A program made the position numbers and the translations under genes. 59,814 bases of DNA, taken from positions 1 to 59,814 of the forward strand of contig JACQXE010000077.1 in the NCBI GenBank assembly GCA_016208915.1, written 5' to 3'. Below the pieces are notes generated by a model, which was not told where the DNA came from, ran no database searches, and saw only the letters and a program-made list of their open reading frames with translations. Positions within the stretch are counted from its first letter, which is position 1. Every line of letters begins with the position of its first letter. Shown here one piece after another: positions 1 through 36,006 of this stretch. The DNA comes from Nitrospirota bacterium. GTDB taxonomy: Bacteria > Nitrospirota > Thermodesulfovibrionia > Thermodesulfovibrionales > UBA1546.

Positions 1-155
1 TGGAATATGGGTTGCCTAAAAATAAGCGATTATAGGCTATTTGGAAAAGCTGATTTTATTAAAAGCGTGTCATCAAAACCTAAAATGAGAGGTAATCAGG
101 TAAAATACAAAAAGCGGACATTTCTAAATTGGCGGAACAAATAAAGGAAAAAATA

Positions 156-184
156 TTGACAAGACTCTTCTCTTGTGATATGTT
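156..184 (+). promoter_or_regulatory. sigma70-like promoter of the regulator gene
   Basis: The -35 hexamer TTGACA (156-161) is separated by exactly 17 nt from a -10 hexamer TATGTT (179-184). Transcription would begin near 190-192, which is where the ATG of the downstream gene lies (191), so the transcript is probably leaderless. Upstream bases 1-155 show no gene that can be recognised; two short open frames end at 144 and 194 without a convincing start or family signature. Confidence 0.7.
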
Positions 185-211
185 CAATATATGAACGTTC
201 ATAAATTGAAC
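182..211. promoter_or_regulatory. tandem palindromic operator (2 x GTTCA-N5-TGAAC)
   Basis: Two perfect 15-bp palindromes sit head to tail with no gap: GTTCA ATATA TGAAC at 182-196 and GTTCA TAAAT TGAAC at 197-211. The first overlaps the -10 box and the start codon, and the second lies in the first codons of the gene. A dimeric winged-helix protein bound here would block RNA polymerase. Autorepression by the product of the gene at 191 is the simplest reading; this is inferred from position and symmetry only. Confidence 0.6.
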
Positions 212-838
212 GAGAAAATACCGGAAACTCAGGACACATACAAGTCCCTTCTGCTTCTCGATGAGATTTCGAAGGGCGAGCCGCTTTCTCAGAGGGATTT
301 AAGCAGTAGACTCAATATAGCCCTCGGTCTTGTCAATTCCTACATTAAGAACCTTGTCTCAAAAGGCTACGTGACGGTTAAGGCTATTCCCGCCAAGCGA
401 TTTGCCTATTATCTCACACCAAAGGGTTTTGCGGAAAAAACAAGGTTAACCTACCATCATCTCCAGAACTTTACAGCCCTTTACAGAGAGGCAAGAAAGG
501 ATTTTGGAGAACTTTTCAGCGAGCTGTATAAAAATGGGGTGAGAAGCGTGGTGTTTGCAGGCGTTGATGAGTCTGCTGAGATAGCATATCTTTCCCTGCA
601 GGAGTTTGATATAAAATTTTTAGGCATTGTGGACAATGAACCAACAGGCAAGGCTTTCTTTAAATATGAGATAATGTCTTTTGAGAGAATAAAGGGGATA
701 AATGCTGATTTTGTAATCATAAGCTCGTTTTTAAAGAAGGATGAAATTTATAAAAGACTTATAGAAGAGGGTATCACATCTCAGAAGATTAAGAGTATAT
801 TCCCTGTATCAAACAGATTAGTGAAGGGGAAAAGATGA
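191..838 (+). CDS. winged-helix regulator with C-terminal Rossmann-like domain
   Basis: A 215-residue protein with an N-terminal MarR/Lrp-like winged helix (about residues 15-85). The helix-turn-helix spans about 32-61, followed by a wing ending in YYLTPKGFAEK. The C-terminal half (about 115-200) has an alternating beta/alpha pattern beginning VRSVVFAGVDESAEIAYL, like the sensor domains of regulators found at the head of exopolysaccharide clusters. No Shine-Dalgarno precedes the ATG at 191, and the promoter -10 ends at 184, so leaderless translation is likely. Its last four bases overlap the next gene (ATGA at 835), so the two are co-translated. It probably represses its own promoter through the tandem palindromes and may sense a sugar-pathway metabolite; the ligand is unknown. 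Confidence 0.8.
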   Translation: MNVHKLNEKIPETQDTYKSLLLLDEISKGEPLSQRDLSSRLNIALGLVNSYIKNLVSKGYVTVKAIPAKRFAYYLTPKGFAEKTRLTYHHLQNFTALYREARKDFGELFSELYKNGVRSVVFAGVDESAEIAYLSLQEFDIKFLGIVDNEPTGKAFFKYEIMSFERIKGINADFVIISSFLKKDEIYKRLIEEGITSQKIKSIFPVSNRLVKGKR

Positions 839-1329
839 TTCAATGGTATGCAATATACACAAAGCCGAAGAGCGAGGGCCTTGTAGCTGATTCTCTCAGC
901 AGGGCAGGGATTGAGGTATTTAATCCTCATCTGAAACAGAGACGATACCTGCAAGGTCATTACAGGGATATAATCAGGCCTCTCTTTCCTTCTTATATAT
1001 TTGCCAGGTTTGAGCACATAAACACATCATGGATGATTCGATATACGCGCGGCGTTAAAAAGATAGTGGGCGGAGATTCACCGTGGCCTGTTTCAGATGA
1101 TATTATTGATTTAATCAAATCTAATGAAAAAGACGGTGTTGTTACACTGAGGTCTCCGAAGCTGATATGCGGTGATAAGGTTGTGATAAAAGACGGCCCC
1201 TTGCAGGGTCTCATCGGAATATTCGAAAGAGAAACCAAAGGCGATGAGAGAGTGGTTCTGCTGTTGAATGCGGTTGAGTATCAGGCAAGGGTTATTGTGT
1301 ATAATTCATCTTTGGCAAAGGCCTCATAA
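835..1329 (+). CDS. NusG/RfaH-like specialised antitermination factor
   Basis: This 164-residue protein has an NGN domain (about 1-100, with WYAIYTKPKSE at the start and the diagnostic LFPSYIFARF at 50-59). A KOW motif follows near 113-131 (GDKVVIKDGPLQGLIGIFE). It is a NusG paralogue rather than housekeeping NusG: there are no secE or rpl genes nearby, and it sits at the head of a polysaccharide operon like RfaH, UpxY and LoaP. Such factors ride with RNA polymerase and suppress termination in long operons. An exact ops core lies 103 nt after its stop codon, which supports RfaH-like recruitment. It is translationally coupled to the upstream regulator. Function is confident at family level; the ops-dependent mechanism is inferred. 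Confidence 0.88.
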   Translation: MIQWYAIYTKPKSEGLVADSLSRAGIEVFNPHLKQRRYLQGHYRDIIRPLFPSYIFARFEHINTSWMIRYTRGVKKIVGGDSPWPVSDDIIDLIKSNEKDGVVTLRSPKLICGDKVVIKDGPLQGLIGIFERETKGDERVVLLLNAVEYQARVIVYNSSLAKAS

Positions 1330-1375
1330 CTGAGGTTTGGCGCCTCAGCCGAAATATTTCCGGCAGGGGCTTTTT
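1330..1375 (+). terminator. intrinsic terminator with competing antiterminator hairpin
   Basis: The terminator stem pairs 1342-1346 with 1366-1370 and 1348-1351 with 1361-1364 (one A/A mismatch, one G-U pair), followed by TTTTT at 1371-1375. A mutually exclusive hairpin pairs CTGAGG (1330-1335) with CCTCAG (1343-1348), which would destroy the terminator. A third option pairs CCTCA (1322-1326) with TGAGG (1331-1335) and overlaps the stop codon of the NusG-like gene. This is the layout of an attenuator; what switches it is not visible. Confidence 0.6.
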
Positions 1376-1431
1376 AAATATATGGGAATGATATCAGACA
1401 TTCCAAAATTAAGGTGGCTAATAAGCCGGAT

Positions 1432-1440
1432 GGCGGTAGC
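1432..1440 (+). promoter_or_regulatory. ops element (RfaH-type recruitment site)
   Basis: GGCGGTAGC matches the core of the enterobacterial ops element exactly, and the next bases CTG match GTG of the E. coli site at two of three positions. It lies in the leader between the NusG-like gene and the first biosynthetic gene, 35 nt before its ATG. A small hairpin (GGAATG 1385-1390 with CATTCC 1399-1404) precedes it. In E. coli the polymerase pauses here and RfaH is loaded onto the exposed non-template strand. Location next to an RfaH/NusG paralogue makes a chance match unlikely. Confidence 0.7.
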
Positions 1441-1475
1441 CTGTCTTAAAATTGTTGTAAGGAGGGAGCATAAAT

Positions 1476-3047
1476 ATGCTTAAAATTGCTGTAATAGGAG
1501 CTGGCTATTGGGGTAAGAATATTGTAAGAAATTTTTACGAGCTTGGTGTGTTGCATACTGTCTGTGACAGCAAGACTGAGCTTCTGGATGTTATCAGGAA
1601 AAACTATACGAATATAGAGATTACTTCTTCTTTTGAAGCCCTTTTTAAAAATCCTGAGATAAGGGCAATAGCTATTGCAACGCCTGCTGTTTCTCATTAC
1701 AACATTGCTAAAGAGGCCCTTAAGGCTGGCAAGGATGTTTTTGTGGAAAAACCATTATCCCTTACTGTTAAAGAGGGCGAGGAGCTTGTATATCTTGCAA
1801 AACAAAAAAACAGGATATTGATGGTAGGACATCTGCTCCACTACCATCAGGCAATTAAGAAACTCAAGGAACTTATATCAACAGGAGAGCTCGGCAAGGT
1901 TCAGTATATCTATTCTAATCGGCTCAATATTGGCAAATTAAGAACAGAGGAGAATATTTTATGGAGTTTTGCGCCTCATGATATATCTGTTATCCTAATG
2001 CTTCTTGAGGAAGAGCCTGTAAGTGTAGCAGCATTTGGAGGGGACTATCTTAACAAAGGCATTTATGACACTACAATGACTACGCTTGAGTTCAGAAATG
2101 GCGTAAAAGGCCATATTTTTGTCAGCTGGCTTCATCCATTTAAGGAACAAAAATTAGTTGTTGTGGGTTCAAAGGCAATGGCTGTTTTTGACGACGTAAG
2201 TAAAGAGAAGTTATTTCTTTATCCTCATAAAATAGAATGGAAAGAGGGCAAAATACCCGTTGCCAAAAAAGCCGATTACCAAATTATAAATATAGGGAGC
2301 GGAGAACCTTTAAAGGAGGAGTTAAGTCATTTCATTGAATGCGTTATGGATAGGAAAAGACCAAGGACTGATGGCGCAGAGGGACTAAGGGTATTAAAGA
2401 TACTTGAAGCTGCTGAGAAAGGGCTTCTAAAAAGTAAACATGATAACGGGAAAAAAAGCAGCCCTGAATATTCTGTCCATGAAAGCGCCTATGTAGATAA
2501 GGATGTTGAAATAGGGGAAGGAACAAGCATCTGGCATTTCAGCCATGTATTGAAAGGCTCAACGATTGGCAAGAACTGCAAAATAGGCCAGAATGTAGTC
2601 ATAGGACCGAATGCGGTTATAGGGAAGAACGTTAAAATTCAGAATAATATATCGGTGTATGAAGGCGTTACTCTCGAAGACAATGTCTTCTGCGGCCCTT
2701 CAATGGTTTTTACAAATGTTTTCAATCCGAGGAGCGAGATACCGAGGATGAAGGAACTGAAAGAGACACTTGTGAAACAGGGAGCAACAATCGGAGCAAA
2801 TGCAACTATTGTTTGCGGTAATACCATAGGCAGATATGCATTTATCGGTGCTGGAGCTGTTGTTACAAAAGATGTTCCGGATTACGGTCTTGTGATGGGA
2901 AATCCCGCAAAGCTGAGCGGATGGATTTGCAGATGCGGCGTAAAACTAAAATCAGCAGGCAAGAAAAACAAGATTGGTTGCGAAACCTGCGGAAACACCT
3001 ATAGATTAAATAGAGGAAAACTTGAGGTTGTCGAGGAGGGACAATGA
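1476..3047 (+). CDS. fused Gfo/Idh dehydrogenase and hexapeptide N-acetyltransferase (WbpB-WbpD type)
   Basis: A 523-residue fusion. Residues about 1-315 are a Gfo/Idh/MocA oxidoreductase with the nucleotide motif GAGYWG at 8-13 and the family VEKPLSL motif, as in WbpB, which oxidises C3 of UDP-GlcNAcA. Residues about 330-480 are a left-handed beta-helix acyltransferase with repeated IG-x4-I hexapeptides, like WbpD, which acetylates the 3-amino group. A short cysteine pair set (CRCG and CETC, about 484-505) suggests a zinc ribbon at the C terminus. The start has a strong Shine-Dalgarno (AGGAGGG). The next gene, a WbpE-like aminotransferase, overlaps it by four bases and supplies the middle step. 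Product: UDP-GlcNAc(3NAc)A. The fusion order puts steps one and three in one chain. Confidence 0.85.
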   Translation: MLKIAVIGAGYWGKNIVRNFYELGVLHTVCDSKTELLDVIRKNYTNIEITSSFEALFKNPEIRAIAIATPAVSHYNIAKEALKAGKDVFVEKPLSLTVKEGEELVYLAKQKNRILMVGHLLHYHQAIKKLKELISTGELGKVQYIYSNRLNIGKLRTEENILWSFAPHDISVILMLLEEEPVSVAAFGGDYLNKGIYDTTMTTLEFRNGVKGHIFVSWLHPFKEQKLVVVGSKAMAVFDDVSKEKLFLYPHKIEWKEGKIPVAKKADYQIINIGSGEPLKEELSHFIECVMDRKRPRTDGAEGLRVLKILEAAEKGLLKSKHDNGKKSSPEYSVHESAYVDKDVEIGEGTSIWHFSHVLKGSTIGKNCKIGQNVVIGPNAVIGKNVKIQNNISVYEGVTLEDNVFCGPSMVFTNVFNPRSEIPRMKELKETLVKQGATIGANATIVCGNTIGRYAFIGAGAVVTKDVPDYGLVMGNPAKLSGWICRCGVKLKSAGKKNKIGCETCGNTYRLNRGKLEVVEEGQ

Positions 3048-5125: not shown

Positions 5126-5368
5126 ATGGCAACAGGAGTTGTTGGAGAACGCGGACAGATTACCATTCCTAAAGATATACGGAAACGTCTCGGCATTAAG
5201 CCGAAAACCTCGGTAGTCATGGAAGTTACGCCTGAGGGTTTGCTTATCCATCCAACTATAACTGTTAAGATTCGCAGTTTTTCCGCTGAGTTTATTGACG
5301 AAACAGCAGGCAAAGATATTATCCGTCCTGGTGAAAGGGAAAAAATACTGGGAAAATGGAGAAAGTGA
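5126..5368 (+). CDS. AbrB/MazE-family antitoxin
   Basis: This 80-residue protein has the swapped-hairpin AbrB signature in residues about 6-40 (VGERGQITIPKDIRKRLGIK) followed by a short C-terminal tail that would neutralise the toxin. The ATG at 5126 follows AAAAGGAGGTCAGTG, a strong ribosome site, and a consensus promoter. The 3' end overlaps the PIN-domain gene by 13 bp, typical of a coupled antitoxin-toxin pair. It likely autoregulates its promoter. Confidence 0.82.
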   Translation: MATGVVGERGQITIPKDIRKRLGIKPKTSVVMEVTPEGLLIHPTITVKIRSFSAEFIDETAGKDIIRPGEREKILGKWRK

Positions 5369-5784
5369 AGGTCTTTCTCGACAGCAATGTGGTCTTTTCC
5401 ATATGCTGGTCAGGGAAGGAAAAGTCACGCTCATATTTACTGTATGAGCTTCAAAAAATGGGCTTTTTCGATATTTTTATTTCTCGGCTTGTTCATGATG
5501 AGACAAAGTTTAACCTGGAGATCAAGAGGGTGGAAGCAATCCCGTTTTTTGAGGAACTCATTAGGCATTCAACCATAATTCCGGACATCGCTTCATCAGC
5601 CGGTGAAGATGAAGCTGCATTACTGCCTGATAACGACAGGATTATATTTTCCTCTGCTGTCTTCCATAGAATGGACTTTTTCCTGACAGGCAACAGAAGG
5701 GATTATAGCCGTCTTTATCATAAAAAAATATCTCGCACTATAGTGCTTACACCGGCCGATTTCCTTAATAAAAGGTATTTATGA
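5356..5784 (+). CDS. PIN-domain toxin (VapC-like)
   Basis: 142 residues with the PIN layout: an N-terminal acidic strand VFLDSNVVFS, a central conserved acidic region (GEDEAALL) and a C-terminal DFFLTGNRRDY that resembles the last PIN strand and its acidic residue. PIN toxins are Mg-dependent ribonucleases that cut tRNA or rRNA. It is translationally coupled to the AbrB-type antitoxin upstream. It sits between wzm and the broken wzt copies, so it may be cargo of the rearrangement rather than part of polysaccharide synthesis. Confidence 0.75.
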   Translation: MEKVKVFLDSNVVFSICWSGKEKSRSYLLYELQKMGFFDIFISRLVHDETKFNLEIKRVEAIPFFEELIRHSTIIPDIASSAGEDEAALLPDNDRIIFSSAVFHRMDFFLTGNRRDYSRLYHKKISRTIVLTPADFLNKRYL

Positions 5785-6825: not shown

Positions 6826-7338
6826 ATGTTTTCTATTATCGAAATTACAAATCTGTCAAAGCAATACCGCATCGGCACAAGAGCGCCGTACAAGACTTTG
6901 CGTGAGACGCTGATGAATGCGATTGCCTTACCTGCGAGAATGTTCAGACGGAATAGTTCGGAAGAAAACAATACTATTTGGGCATTAAAGGATGTTTCTT
7001 TTGACGTGAAAGAGGGCGAGGTCGTAGGGATCATCGGCAGAAACGGCGCAGGAAAGTCCACGCTTCTTAAAATACTTTCGAGAGTGACAGAGCCTACCGA
7101 AGGAGAGATAAAATTGCGCGGGAGGGTAGCGAGTCTGCTTGAAGTCGGGACAGGTTTTCATCCTGAATTGACAGGAAGGGAAAATATATATTTGAACGGC
7201 GCGATATTTGGAATGAGCAAGGCGAAGATAAACAGGAAGTTTGATGAGATAGTGGCGTTTGCAGAAATAAGGAGAGCAGGAGAAATTAAATGCTATAATA
7301 AAATCAATAACCAAGGAGGTGTTAGATGCCTAAAATAG
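6826..7338 (+). pseudogene. 5' fragment 2 of wzt (ABC ATPase), C-terminally replaced
   Basis: This is the longest wzt fragment. It has MFSIIEITNLSKQYRIGTRA, then a Walker A motif (GIIGRNGAGKSTLLKIL, about residues 68-84), and runs to VAFAEI (about residue 148). Homology then stops near 7268, before the signature motif and Walker B, and the frame continues through the promoter and first codons of the next toxin-antitoxin pair. The 170-residue product cannot hydrolyse ATP normally. Bases about 6864-7028 are almost identical to fragment 3 (two mismatches). Confidence 0.85.
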
Positions 7339-7538
7339 TAACAGAGGTTCCAGAAAAAATCTATAGAAATATCAATGAAGATGTGAAGTGTGGTATCTTT
7401 GCTGACACATCATCGGCGGTTATTTCTGCACTTAAAAAAGCTTATGCCCAAAAAAGCAGGACATATCTCAGGTGGTTGATGAAAAAAGAAGGCTTAACAG
7501 AAGCTGAGATGCTCAAGGAACTTGAGAAGCTTCGCTGA
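7326..7538 (+). CDS. putative antitoxin of PIN module
   Basis: A 70-residue acidic-basic protein (MPKIVTEVPEKIYRNINEDV start). It could be a ribbon-helix-helix type DNA binder, with a helical C terminus (EAEMLKELEKL). It has an excellent ribosome site (AAGGAGGTG) and a TATAAT box at 7294-7299. The stop codon overlaps the start of the PIN gene by one base (TGATG), so the pair is coupled. The antitoxin role is inferred from position and size. Confidence 0.65.
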   Translation: MPKIVTEVPEKIYRNINEDVKCGIFADTSSAVISALKKAYAQKSRTYLRWLMKKEGLTEAEMLKELEKLR

Positions 7539-7963
7539 TGAGATTCAAGGTTTTTCTCGATACCAATATCCTTTTATCCGGAATCTTCTTTGACGGCAAT
7601 GAAGCAAAGATCCTGGATTTGGTAGAGATCGAGTTTGTAACAAGCGAGGATGTAGTTGAAGAGTTGCGGAAAGTGGTGAAGAAGAAACTTAAATATCTCA
7701 AAGAGAGAACCTTTGAGATAGCCCTATCCGAGACAGAGCGTGCACTCAGCGATATAACGGTTATTTCACGGTCAAAATATAATCACAAGATTAAGGAAGC
7801 CGAAAGCTTGATAACACACAAGAAAGATGTTTCTATCCTTGCCGCTGTGCTTTATTTAAAGCCTGATTATTTTTTAACAGGCGATGCTCATTTCTTTACT
7901 GACAAAATTAAAAATATTGTAAATGTTTTTGCCGCCAAGGATTTTCTTGTAAAAATTAAATGA
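7538..7963 (+). CDS. PIN-domain toxin
   Basis: 141 residues with a PIN start (FKVFLDTNILLSGIFFDGNE) and a C-terminal conserved part (HKKDVSILAAVLYLKPDYFLTGD) that carries the catalytic acidic residues D, D and D. It belongs to the same broad PIN group as the toxin at 5356, but sequence identity by eye is low, so the two modules are separate acquisitions and not a duplication. It lies immediately after a wzt fragment and before another. Confidence 0.75.
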   Translation: MRFKVFLDTNILLSGIFFDGNEAKILDLVEIEFVTSEDVVEELRKVVKKKLKYLKERTFEIALSETERALSDITVISRSKYNHKIKEAESLITHKKDVSILAAVLYLKPDYFLTGDAHFFTDKIKNIVNVFAAKDFLVKIK

Positions 7964-35680: not shown

Positions 35681-36006
35681 CAGCTCAGCAAAAGATCGCT
35701 GCACTGATCATGGGTGCAGGTCTGTTTCTGGTTATTATCGAGATGGTAAGAAGGAGAAAGCTCGCTGAAGAATATTCATTCCTCTGGCTGCTTACAGGAC
35801 TATGTGTTATTGTGCTTGTCTTGTGGTATGACCTCTTGGAATGGCTGACTCATTTTATCGGAGCCATGACCCCGACAACGACTCTTTTTATATTTGGATT
35901 TTTATTTTTGATGTTGATTAATCTGCACTATTCCATGAAGATTAGCCGGCTTGGGTTGCAGGTGAAAGAGCTTGCACAGAAGATAGCCATATATGAAAGA
36001 AAGTGA
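35677..36006 (+). CDS. DUF2304 membrane protein
   Basis: 109 residues with three hydrophobic segments and the family motif RRRKLAEEYSFLWLLTGL. DUF2304 proteins nearly always follow DPM1-like GT2 genes and are thought to help them in the membrane. This is the last gene of the forward block before a convergent gene; only five bases separate the stop codons, with no clear terminator. Confidence 0.85.
   Translation: MTAQQKIAALIMGAGLFLVIIEMVRRRKLAEEYSFLWLLTGLCVIVLVLWYDLLEWLTHFIGAMTPTTTLFIFGFLFLMLINLHYSMKISRLGLQVKELAQKIAIYERK

Follow-up and report, generated by a model that had tools for sequence, protein, structure and literature searches.

RfaH of E. coli, a two-domain paralogue of NusG, acts at the ops element in the leaders of surface-polysaccharide operons. 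Within ops, T11 and G12 are the pause-inducing TG, and G4, G5, A7 and G8 are required by RfaH but not for pausing; H20, R23, Q24 and R73 of the protein line a pocket for T6 (PMC5995543). In the K-12 leaders of rfb, waa and wza, which Rfam calls JUMPstart (RF01707), a hairpin precedes ops, its stem 0–1 nt away. Other paralogues are encoded beside the operons that they serve. UpxY of Bacteroides heads polysaccharide operons, and no role of ops in its recruitment is known (PMC7593976). LoaP of Bacillus lies beside its own operon and binds a sequence-specific UNCG hairpin in the leader RNA (PMC12691694). A 2026 preprint describes cis-encoded, monomorphic beta-RfaH proteins that adjoin long LPS or polysaccharide operons and are ops-independent in E. 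coli (PMC13015549).

How, then, do many cis-encoded NusG paralogues find their operons? Wang et al. (2020) place about 95% of RfaH in Proteobacteria, regard ops contacts and autoinhibition as acquired late and together, and state that the recruitment of cis-encoded paralogues is unknown (PMC7593976). The locus described here bears on this open question. It lies in a 59,814-nt stretch of Nitrospirota DNA (the window). Here, in another phylum, hairpin and ops are arranged as in E. coli and the ops word itself is identical; it is fixed next to an RfaH-like gene whose product lacks some of the known contact surface. In common with the E. coli system it has an identical ops core with the TG pause bases, an RNA stem-loop immediately 5' of ops, a surface-polysaccharide operon as presumed target, and a two-domain factor that retains K10, R73 and F56 and lacks the Rho-contact loop. 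A literature search of partial coverage found no paper pairing RfaH with Nitrospir*, which is not proof of novelty.

Location and sequence of the element

The features of the locus are as follows.

156–184, plus strand: sigma-70-like promoter TTGACA-17-TATGTT with extended TG (10/12 in a consensus scan, the best in 1–1500)
182–196 and 197–211, no strand assigned: two adjoining palindromes GTTCA-N5-TGAAC, which recur in related loci
191–838, plus strand: MarR_EPS-like regulator gene (TIGR04176, 57.7 bits, below the cut-off of 88)
835–1329, plus strand: RfaH-like NusG paralogue of 164 aa
1385–1404, plus strand: inverted repeat GGAATG...CATTCC, kept only in the nearest relatives when leaders are compared
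1415–1428, plus strand: RNA hairpin UGGCU-AAUA-AGCCG, its 3' arm ending 3 nt 5' of ops
1432–1443, plus strand: ops element GGCGGTAGCCTG (C3 is 1434, T6 is 1437, G8 is 1439, T11 is 1442, G12 is 1443)
1459–1466, plus strand: strong Shine-Dalgarno sequence AAGGAGGG before the first operon gene
1476–36006, plus strand: surface-polysaccharide cluster, 34.5 kb and co-directional, the presumed target

A sequence-only reading of the window had placed a perfect ops core at 1432–1440, in the 146-nt gap that follows a NusG-like gene. Both points hold. GGCGGTAGC is found there on the plus strand and nowhere else in the window on either strand (0.12 copies are expected from shuffles), and the gap spans 1330–1475, between the NusG/RfaH-like ORF and the next ORF, which starts at 1476. 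The match to E. coli ops extends over 1432–1443 with 11/12 bases identical; T11 and G12 are kept, and the C at position 10 is the sole departure from the E. coli 12-mer GGCGGTAGCGTG. The element lies 103 nt 3' of the RfaH-like gene and 32 nt 5' of the polysaccharide cluster, on the sense strand in the leader of a long operon whose transcription is inferred from gene order. A chance of about 1 in 1,900 had been given for the 9-mer in this gap, which is correct under uniform base composition (138 positions / 4^9). The figure is post hoc, however, and the real evidence for ops is comparative.

The host genome (2.5 Mb, 98.8% complete) contains the 9-mer nine times and the reversed word three times. 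Eight of the nine fall inside predicted coding frames, which leaves the copy in the window as the sole intergenic one. The proposal that factor and element are linked in cis is thus borne out, the gene being just upstream and the genome being without another intergenic copy.

The gene order runs from the promoter and palindromes through the MarR_EPS-like gene, the RfaH-like gene and the ops leader into the co-directional cluster that ends at 36006. The promoter is inferred to drive marR, rfaH, ops and the operon together. GTTCA-N5-TGAAC palindromes occur in 19/80 loci, versus 1.55 in shuffled sequence. They sit at the start of marR (L095, L096, L097, L099, L100, L101) or 5' of ops (L123, L132, L134, L138, L156), about 60 nt away where the MarR_EPS-like gene is downstream; L169 also has them. 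Those at 182–211 are probably the operator of the MarR_EPS-like regulator, a putative assignment.

The cluster encodes a Wzm/KpsM-type ABC-2 transporter, a Wzx-like flippase, glycosyltransferases and a pseudaminic-acid pathway, with PseB, PseC, PseG and PseI above their curated cut-offs. Two PIN-domain ORFs (5356–5784 and 7538–7963) lie in it on either side of a truncated ABC ATPase (6826–7338, 170 aa); they are possibly insertions in the Wzt gene region.

Conservation among related loci

Is the element kept in relatives? The sequence-only reading would have been refuted by its absence from orthologous leaders. When leaders of related loci were compared, no such absence was seen: the exact 9-mer is present in the leader of every close orthologue retrieved, invariant in orthologues of the same family and recurrent across the phylum. 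In seven same-family loci (L003–L009) and one of the same order (L010) it lies 60–103 nt 3' of the gene; in L011 and L013 it lies 5' of the rfaH-like gene, by 21 and 15 nt. The 12-mer GGCGGTAGCNTG occurs in 8/16 genomes of the window's family; these are precisely the genomes whose rfaH-like orthologue has E below 1e-60, and the eight genomes without that orthologue also lack the 12-mer.

Eighty related loci were used for tests of word and strand. In a census of every 9-mer in the 300 nt 3' of the gene, GGCGGTAGC ranks first, in 34/78 loci, while no word exceeds 5 loci in shuffled sequence; the 9-mers ranked next are overlapping fragments of this word or of the hairpin arm beside it. Around the gene the word is in sense orientation in 40/80 loci and antisense in none, against at most 4 (mean 0.37) for scrambled words of the same composition. 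The best match per locus is exact in 35 and carries one mismatch in 4, three of these T6 to C; loci with two mismatches are not above chance (12 versus 19 expected). This sharp distribution, in which the element is exact, or T6 to C, or absent, indicates a precise recognition sequence.

An rfaH-like match was found in half of 101 relatives. Roughly half of the relatives have the paralogue but no ops that can be recognised, and their factors must load in some other way; T6 to C is the only recurrent near-variant in these ops-free relatives. The presence of ops tracks the protein tree, requiring 13 changes versus 25.5 with shuffled labels (minimum 19). Three loci with GGCGGCAGC at coding or hairpin-less positions (L125, L126, L160) were left out of the tree labels.

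A hairpin at a fixed distance from ops

The 3' arm of a stem ends exactly 3 nt 5' of G1 in 34/49 non-redundant sites; in shuffled sequence this holds for 5.45 sites on average and for no more than 10. Stem scores average 13.2, versus 8.6 for shuffles. In a model-based alignment all five stem pairs vary on both sides, with a covariation score of 0.303 versus 0.138 (sd 0.022) for shuffles and at most 0.140 for slid controls. Since the structure was used in fitting this alignment, the test of fixed spacing gives the cleaner evidence. Stems and loops differ between relatives, and orthologous leaders share ops but not the hairpin sequence. Between the base of the stem (1428) and U11 (1442) lie 14 nt of RNA, and RNA polymerase encloses about that length. 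From this we infer that the hairpin would stand at the exit channel during a pause.

The Nitrospirota elements share the JUMPstart layout, not its sequence outside ops. Their spacer is 3 nt rather than 0–1, the stem sequence is different and base 10 of ops is C. Rfam JUMPstart gave no match in window positions 1–3000 up to E 5 (gathering score 35 bits), and the best relative (L023) reached 22.3 bits, also below that score. A known Rfam riboswitch or leader was rejected for want of a match, and a scan of the sense strand 5' of ops found no intrinsic terminator. E. coli RfaH targets often lack a Shine-Dalgarno sequence, whereas the gene downstream of this leader has a strong one.

The RfaH-like factor

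Is the neighbouring paralogue an RfaH? TIGR01955 is its best family, at 116.1 bits below the RfaH cut-off of 144.5; the UpxY model NF033644 (77.9 versus 100) and the LoaP model NF033641 (55.9 versus 125) are not reached either. A PDB search by sequence places E. coli RfaH first, in a structure search the best-scoring full-length RfaH entries are the recruited forms 8phk and 6c6s, and all 59 aligned relatives of the factor match RfaH. The genome contains no second RfaH-like gene; one further match, a weak one, was taken as the housekeeping NusG. No viral relatives of the factor were found.

Sequence comparison gives only a partial answer on whether the factor has the ops-binding surface on which the sequence-only reading depended. 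Nearly all ops-bearing relatives retain K10 and R73, but other residues stand in for H20, and R23 is variable within the clade. The window's factor itself has K10, R23, R72 (equivalent to R73), F56, F130 and R139 (equivalent to R138), with S for H20 and R for E48. In ops-bearing relatives K10 is present in 47/47 and R73 in 43/47, T72, G74 and V75 are also kept, H20 is mostly R, S or K, and R23 is N or G in most. Since ops-free relatives keep K10 and R73 as well, these residues do not discriminate between the two groups, and the contact residues were rejected as a predictor of ops presence. F56 is found in 81/81, and the Rho-contact loop is missing, with AVE in place of the IFG of NusG.

In E. 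coli RfaH, the autoinhibited alpha-helical KOW is associated with E48, I93, F130 and R138, and E48 is required for autoinhibition. AlphaFold predicts a beta KOW for the window's protein (pLDDT 79.7, CTD blocks 60–79) and for one relative, L131 (pLDDT 91.9), both without an E. coli RfaH control; for proteins that switch fold, AF2 often gives only one of the states. The window's factor thus differs from E. coli RfaH in being encoded in cis with a single site in its genome, in the changes at H20 and E48, and in its predicted fold. It resembles the cis-encoded beta-RfaH proteins in adjoining a long polysaccharide operon, in the predicted beta KOW and in the loss of some ops-contact residues; those proteins were ops-independent in the E. 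coli assay, whereas the window's leader keeps an exact ops (PMC13015549). With UpxY, which it does not match at the family cut-off and which is not known to be recruited through ops, it shares its place at the head of a polysaccharide operon, and with LoaP the position of a specialised paralogue beside its own operon and a leader hairpin.

Distribution in other genomes

At E up to 0.001, a hairpin-ops model matched 26/198 genomes of the phylum, other classes included. The module occurs in other Nitrospirota families and in MAGs titled Deltaproteobacteria. In two large, near-complete assemblies of another family outside the window's class (L249, L263), the rfaH-like gene is again followed by hairpin-ops and then by polysaccharide-export genes; ops lies 5' of the rfaH-like gene in L265 and L258. 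Records of same-family relatives are titled Nitrospirae, Thermodesulfovibrionales and, in one case, Nitrospinota, which agrees with the distant phylum that had been proposed. Most relatives are metagenome bins, the Deltaproteobacteria titles are unreliable as a phylum label, and Ignavibacterium, Actinomycetota and Verrucomicrobia records are possibly mislabelled bins or transfers. Whether ops was inherited, transferred or arose by convergence is not resolved by the sequences at hand.

Some genomes have further intergenic hairpin-ops sites before flippase, epimerase, nucleotidyltransferase or MarR_EPS genes, and there action in trans is likely. Across 101 genomes of the order the 12-mer is not in excess genome-wide (79 versus 78 in the control), and an order-wide trans regulon was rejected for that reason. 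Action on several unlinked operons is unsupported in the window's own genome, which has a single intergenic site. With one such site and no 12-mer excess, this genome looks strictly cis.

Repeats of about 100 nt that end in a hairpin and GGCGGTAGC[CT]TG were seen in G047 (L204, L205, L206), G074 (L213, L214), L207, L209 and L219. They adjoin unrelated accessory genes, and L207 and L209 lie near ORFs resembling REP-associated transposases. These repeats, which remain unexplained, may be mobile ops cassettes or a repeat family.

Discussion

We are fairly confident, in the absence of binding data, that 1432–1443 is a genuine ops in a JUMPstart-like leader that recruits the cis-encoded RfaH-like factor for the long polysaccharide cluster. 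The sequence, position, strand and conservation of the element, its hairpin with covariation, and its linkage to the gene are direct observations; pausing, recognition of the non-template strand, binding and antitermination are inferred by analogy with E. coli RfaH. On that analogy, RNA polymerase would start near 190 under MarR_EPS control and transcribe marR and rfaH. It would pause at ops, with the hairpin at 1415–1428 folding on its emergence from the enzyme, 14 nt 5' of U11. In the non-template strand C3 and G8 (1434 and 1439) would close a small loop, exposing G5 and T6, and the factor, freshly synthesised close by, could read this loop with K10 and R72 of its NGN domain. The factor would then grip the beta' clamp helices with its F56 patch, exclude NusG and Rho, and carry RNA polymerase through the cluster. 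In favour of this reading, G4, G5, A7 and G8, on which E. coli RfaH depends and pausing does not, are invariant here. Against this reading stand the lack of conservation, across the clade, of two of the four ops-touching side chains of E. coli RfaH (H20 and R23), the relatives without ops, about half of the total, a factor score under the RfaH cut-off, and the lack of an order-wide 12-mer excess.

Could the signal be RNA instead? The factor, or NusA or NusG, might read the nascent hairpin and GGCGGUAGC RNA in the manner of LoaP, and not the non-template DNA. Sequence comparison cannot separate RNA from non-template DNA, the hairpin is conserved in structure and position, and LoaP, a related paralogue, does bind RNA (PMC12691694). 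We nevertheless think this improbable: unlike the sequence-specific UNCG hairpin of LoaP, the hairpin here varies freely in sequence and loop (AAUA in the window) beside an invariant ops; what stays constant in ops is the set of bases read by E. coli RfaH in non-template DNA (PMC5995543); and the LoaP HMM score is far under its cut-off. It is just as unlikely, in our judgement, that GGCGGTAGCNTG is retained only as a strong pause, with a factor devoid of sequence preference loading wherever polymerase is paused because it is made in cis. The most conserved part of ops is the central CGGTAG, which is dispensable for pausing (PMC5995543), while the pause positions 11–12 vary more (T 29/C 10; G 34/A 4), and other hairpin-bearing sites precede polysaccharide genes away from rfaH. 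These observations outweigh, for us, the match of ops to the consensus pause, the cis location and predicted lack of autoinhibition of the factor, and the reported ops independence of cis-encoded beta-RfaH proteins (PMC13015549).

That the ops word lies by accident in a transposase-linked or REP-like repeat deserves very little credence. Repeats do occur among the extra copies in G047, G059 and G074, two of them (L207, L209) with the transposase-like neighbours noted above, but the window's genome has a single hairpin-plus-ops copy with no dispersed copies found, and the site is fixed after rfaH in orthologous leaders whose hairpin sequences differ. Least credible of all is a chance match; although one 9-mer was picked after the fact, conservation, strand bias and the word census rule chance out.

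What follows if ops recruitment is accepted? Neither PMC7593976 nor PMC13015549 would lead one to expect a fixed ops together with a cis-encoded gene and a predicted beta KOW. The favoured reading, whose binding step is an inference only, is at odds with a late, joint origin of ops recognition and autoinhibition. Conservation of ops beside an RfaH-like gene in a distant phylum suggests that this loading mechanism is probably far more widespread, and perhaps older, than thought. The broader claim, that a cis-encoded, non-autoinhibited (beta-KOW) RfaH lineage recognises ops sequence-specifically across Nitrospirota and Deltaproteobacteria-titled MAGs, is a serious possibility that we hold only tentatively, with doubt slightly the stronger. 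If it is true, the ability to read ops is older than autoinhibition and trans action or had a separate origin, rather than arising late with the fold switch, and the RNA hairpin at fixed spacing is a second, general part of the recruitment signal.

Nature supplies test cases in ops against T6-to-C ops, in ops-bearing against ops-free close relatives, and in cis against extra sites. That T6 is the sole varying base fits the altered T6-pocket residues, if the pocket of E. coli RfaH is a guide. The T6-to-C variant GGCGGCAGC was seen in L157, L136 (3543–3588), L173, L119, L267, L250 and L261, in most of them with the hairpin, and may mark factors with an altered T6 pocket.
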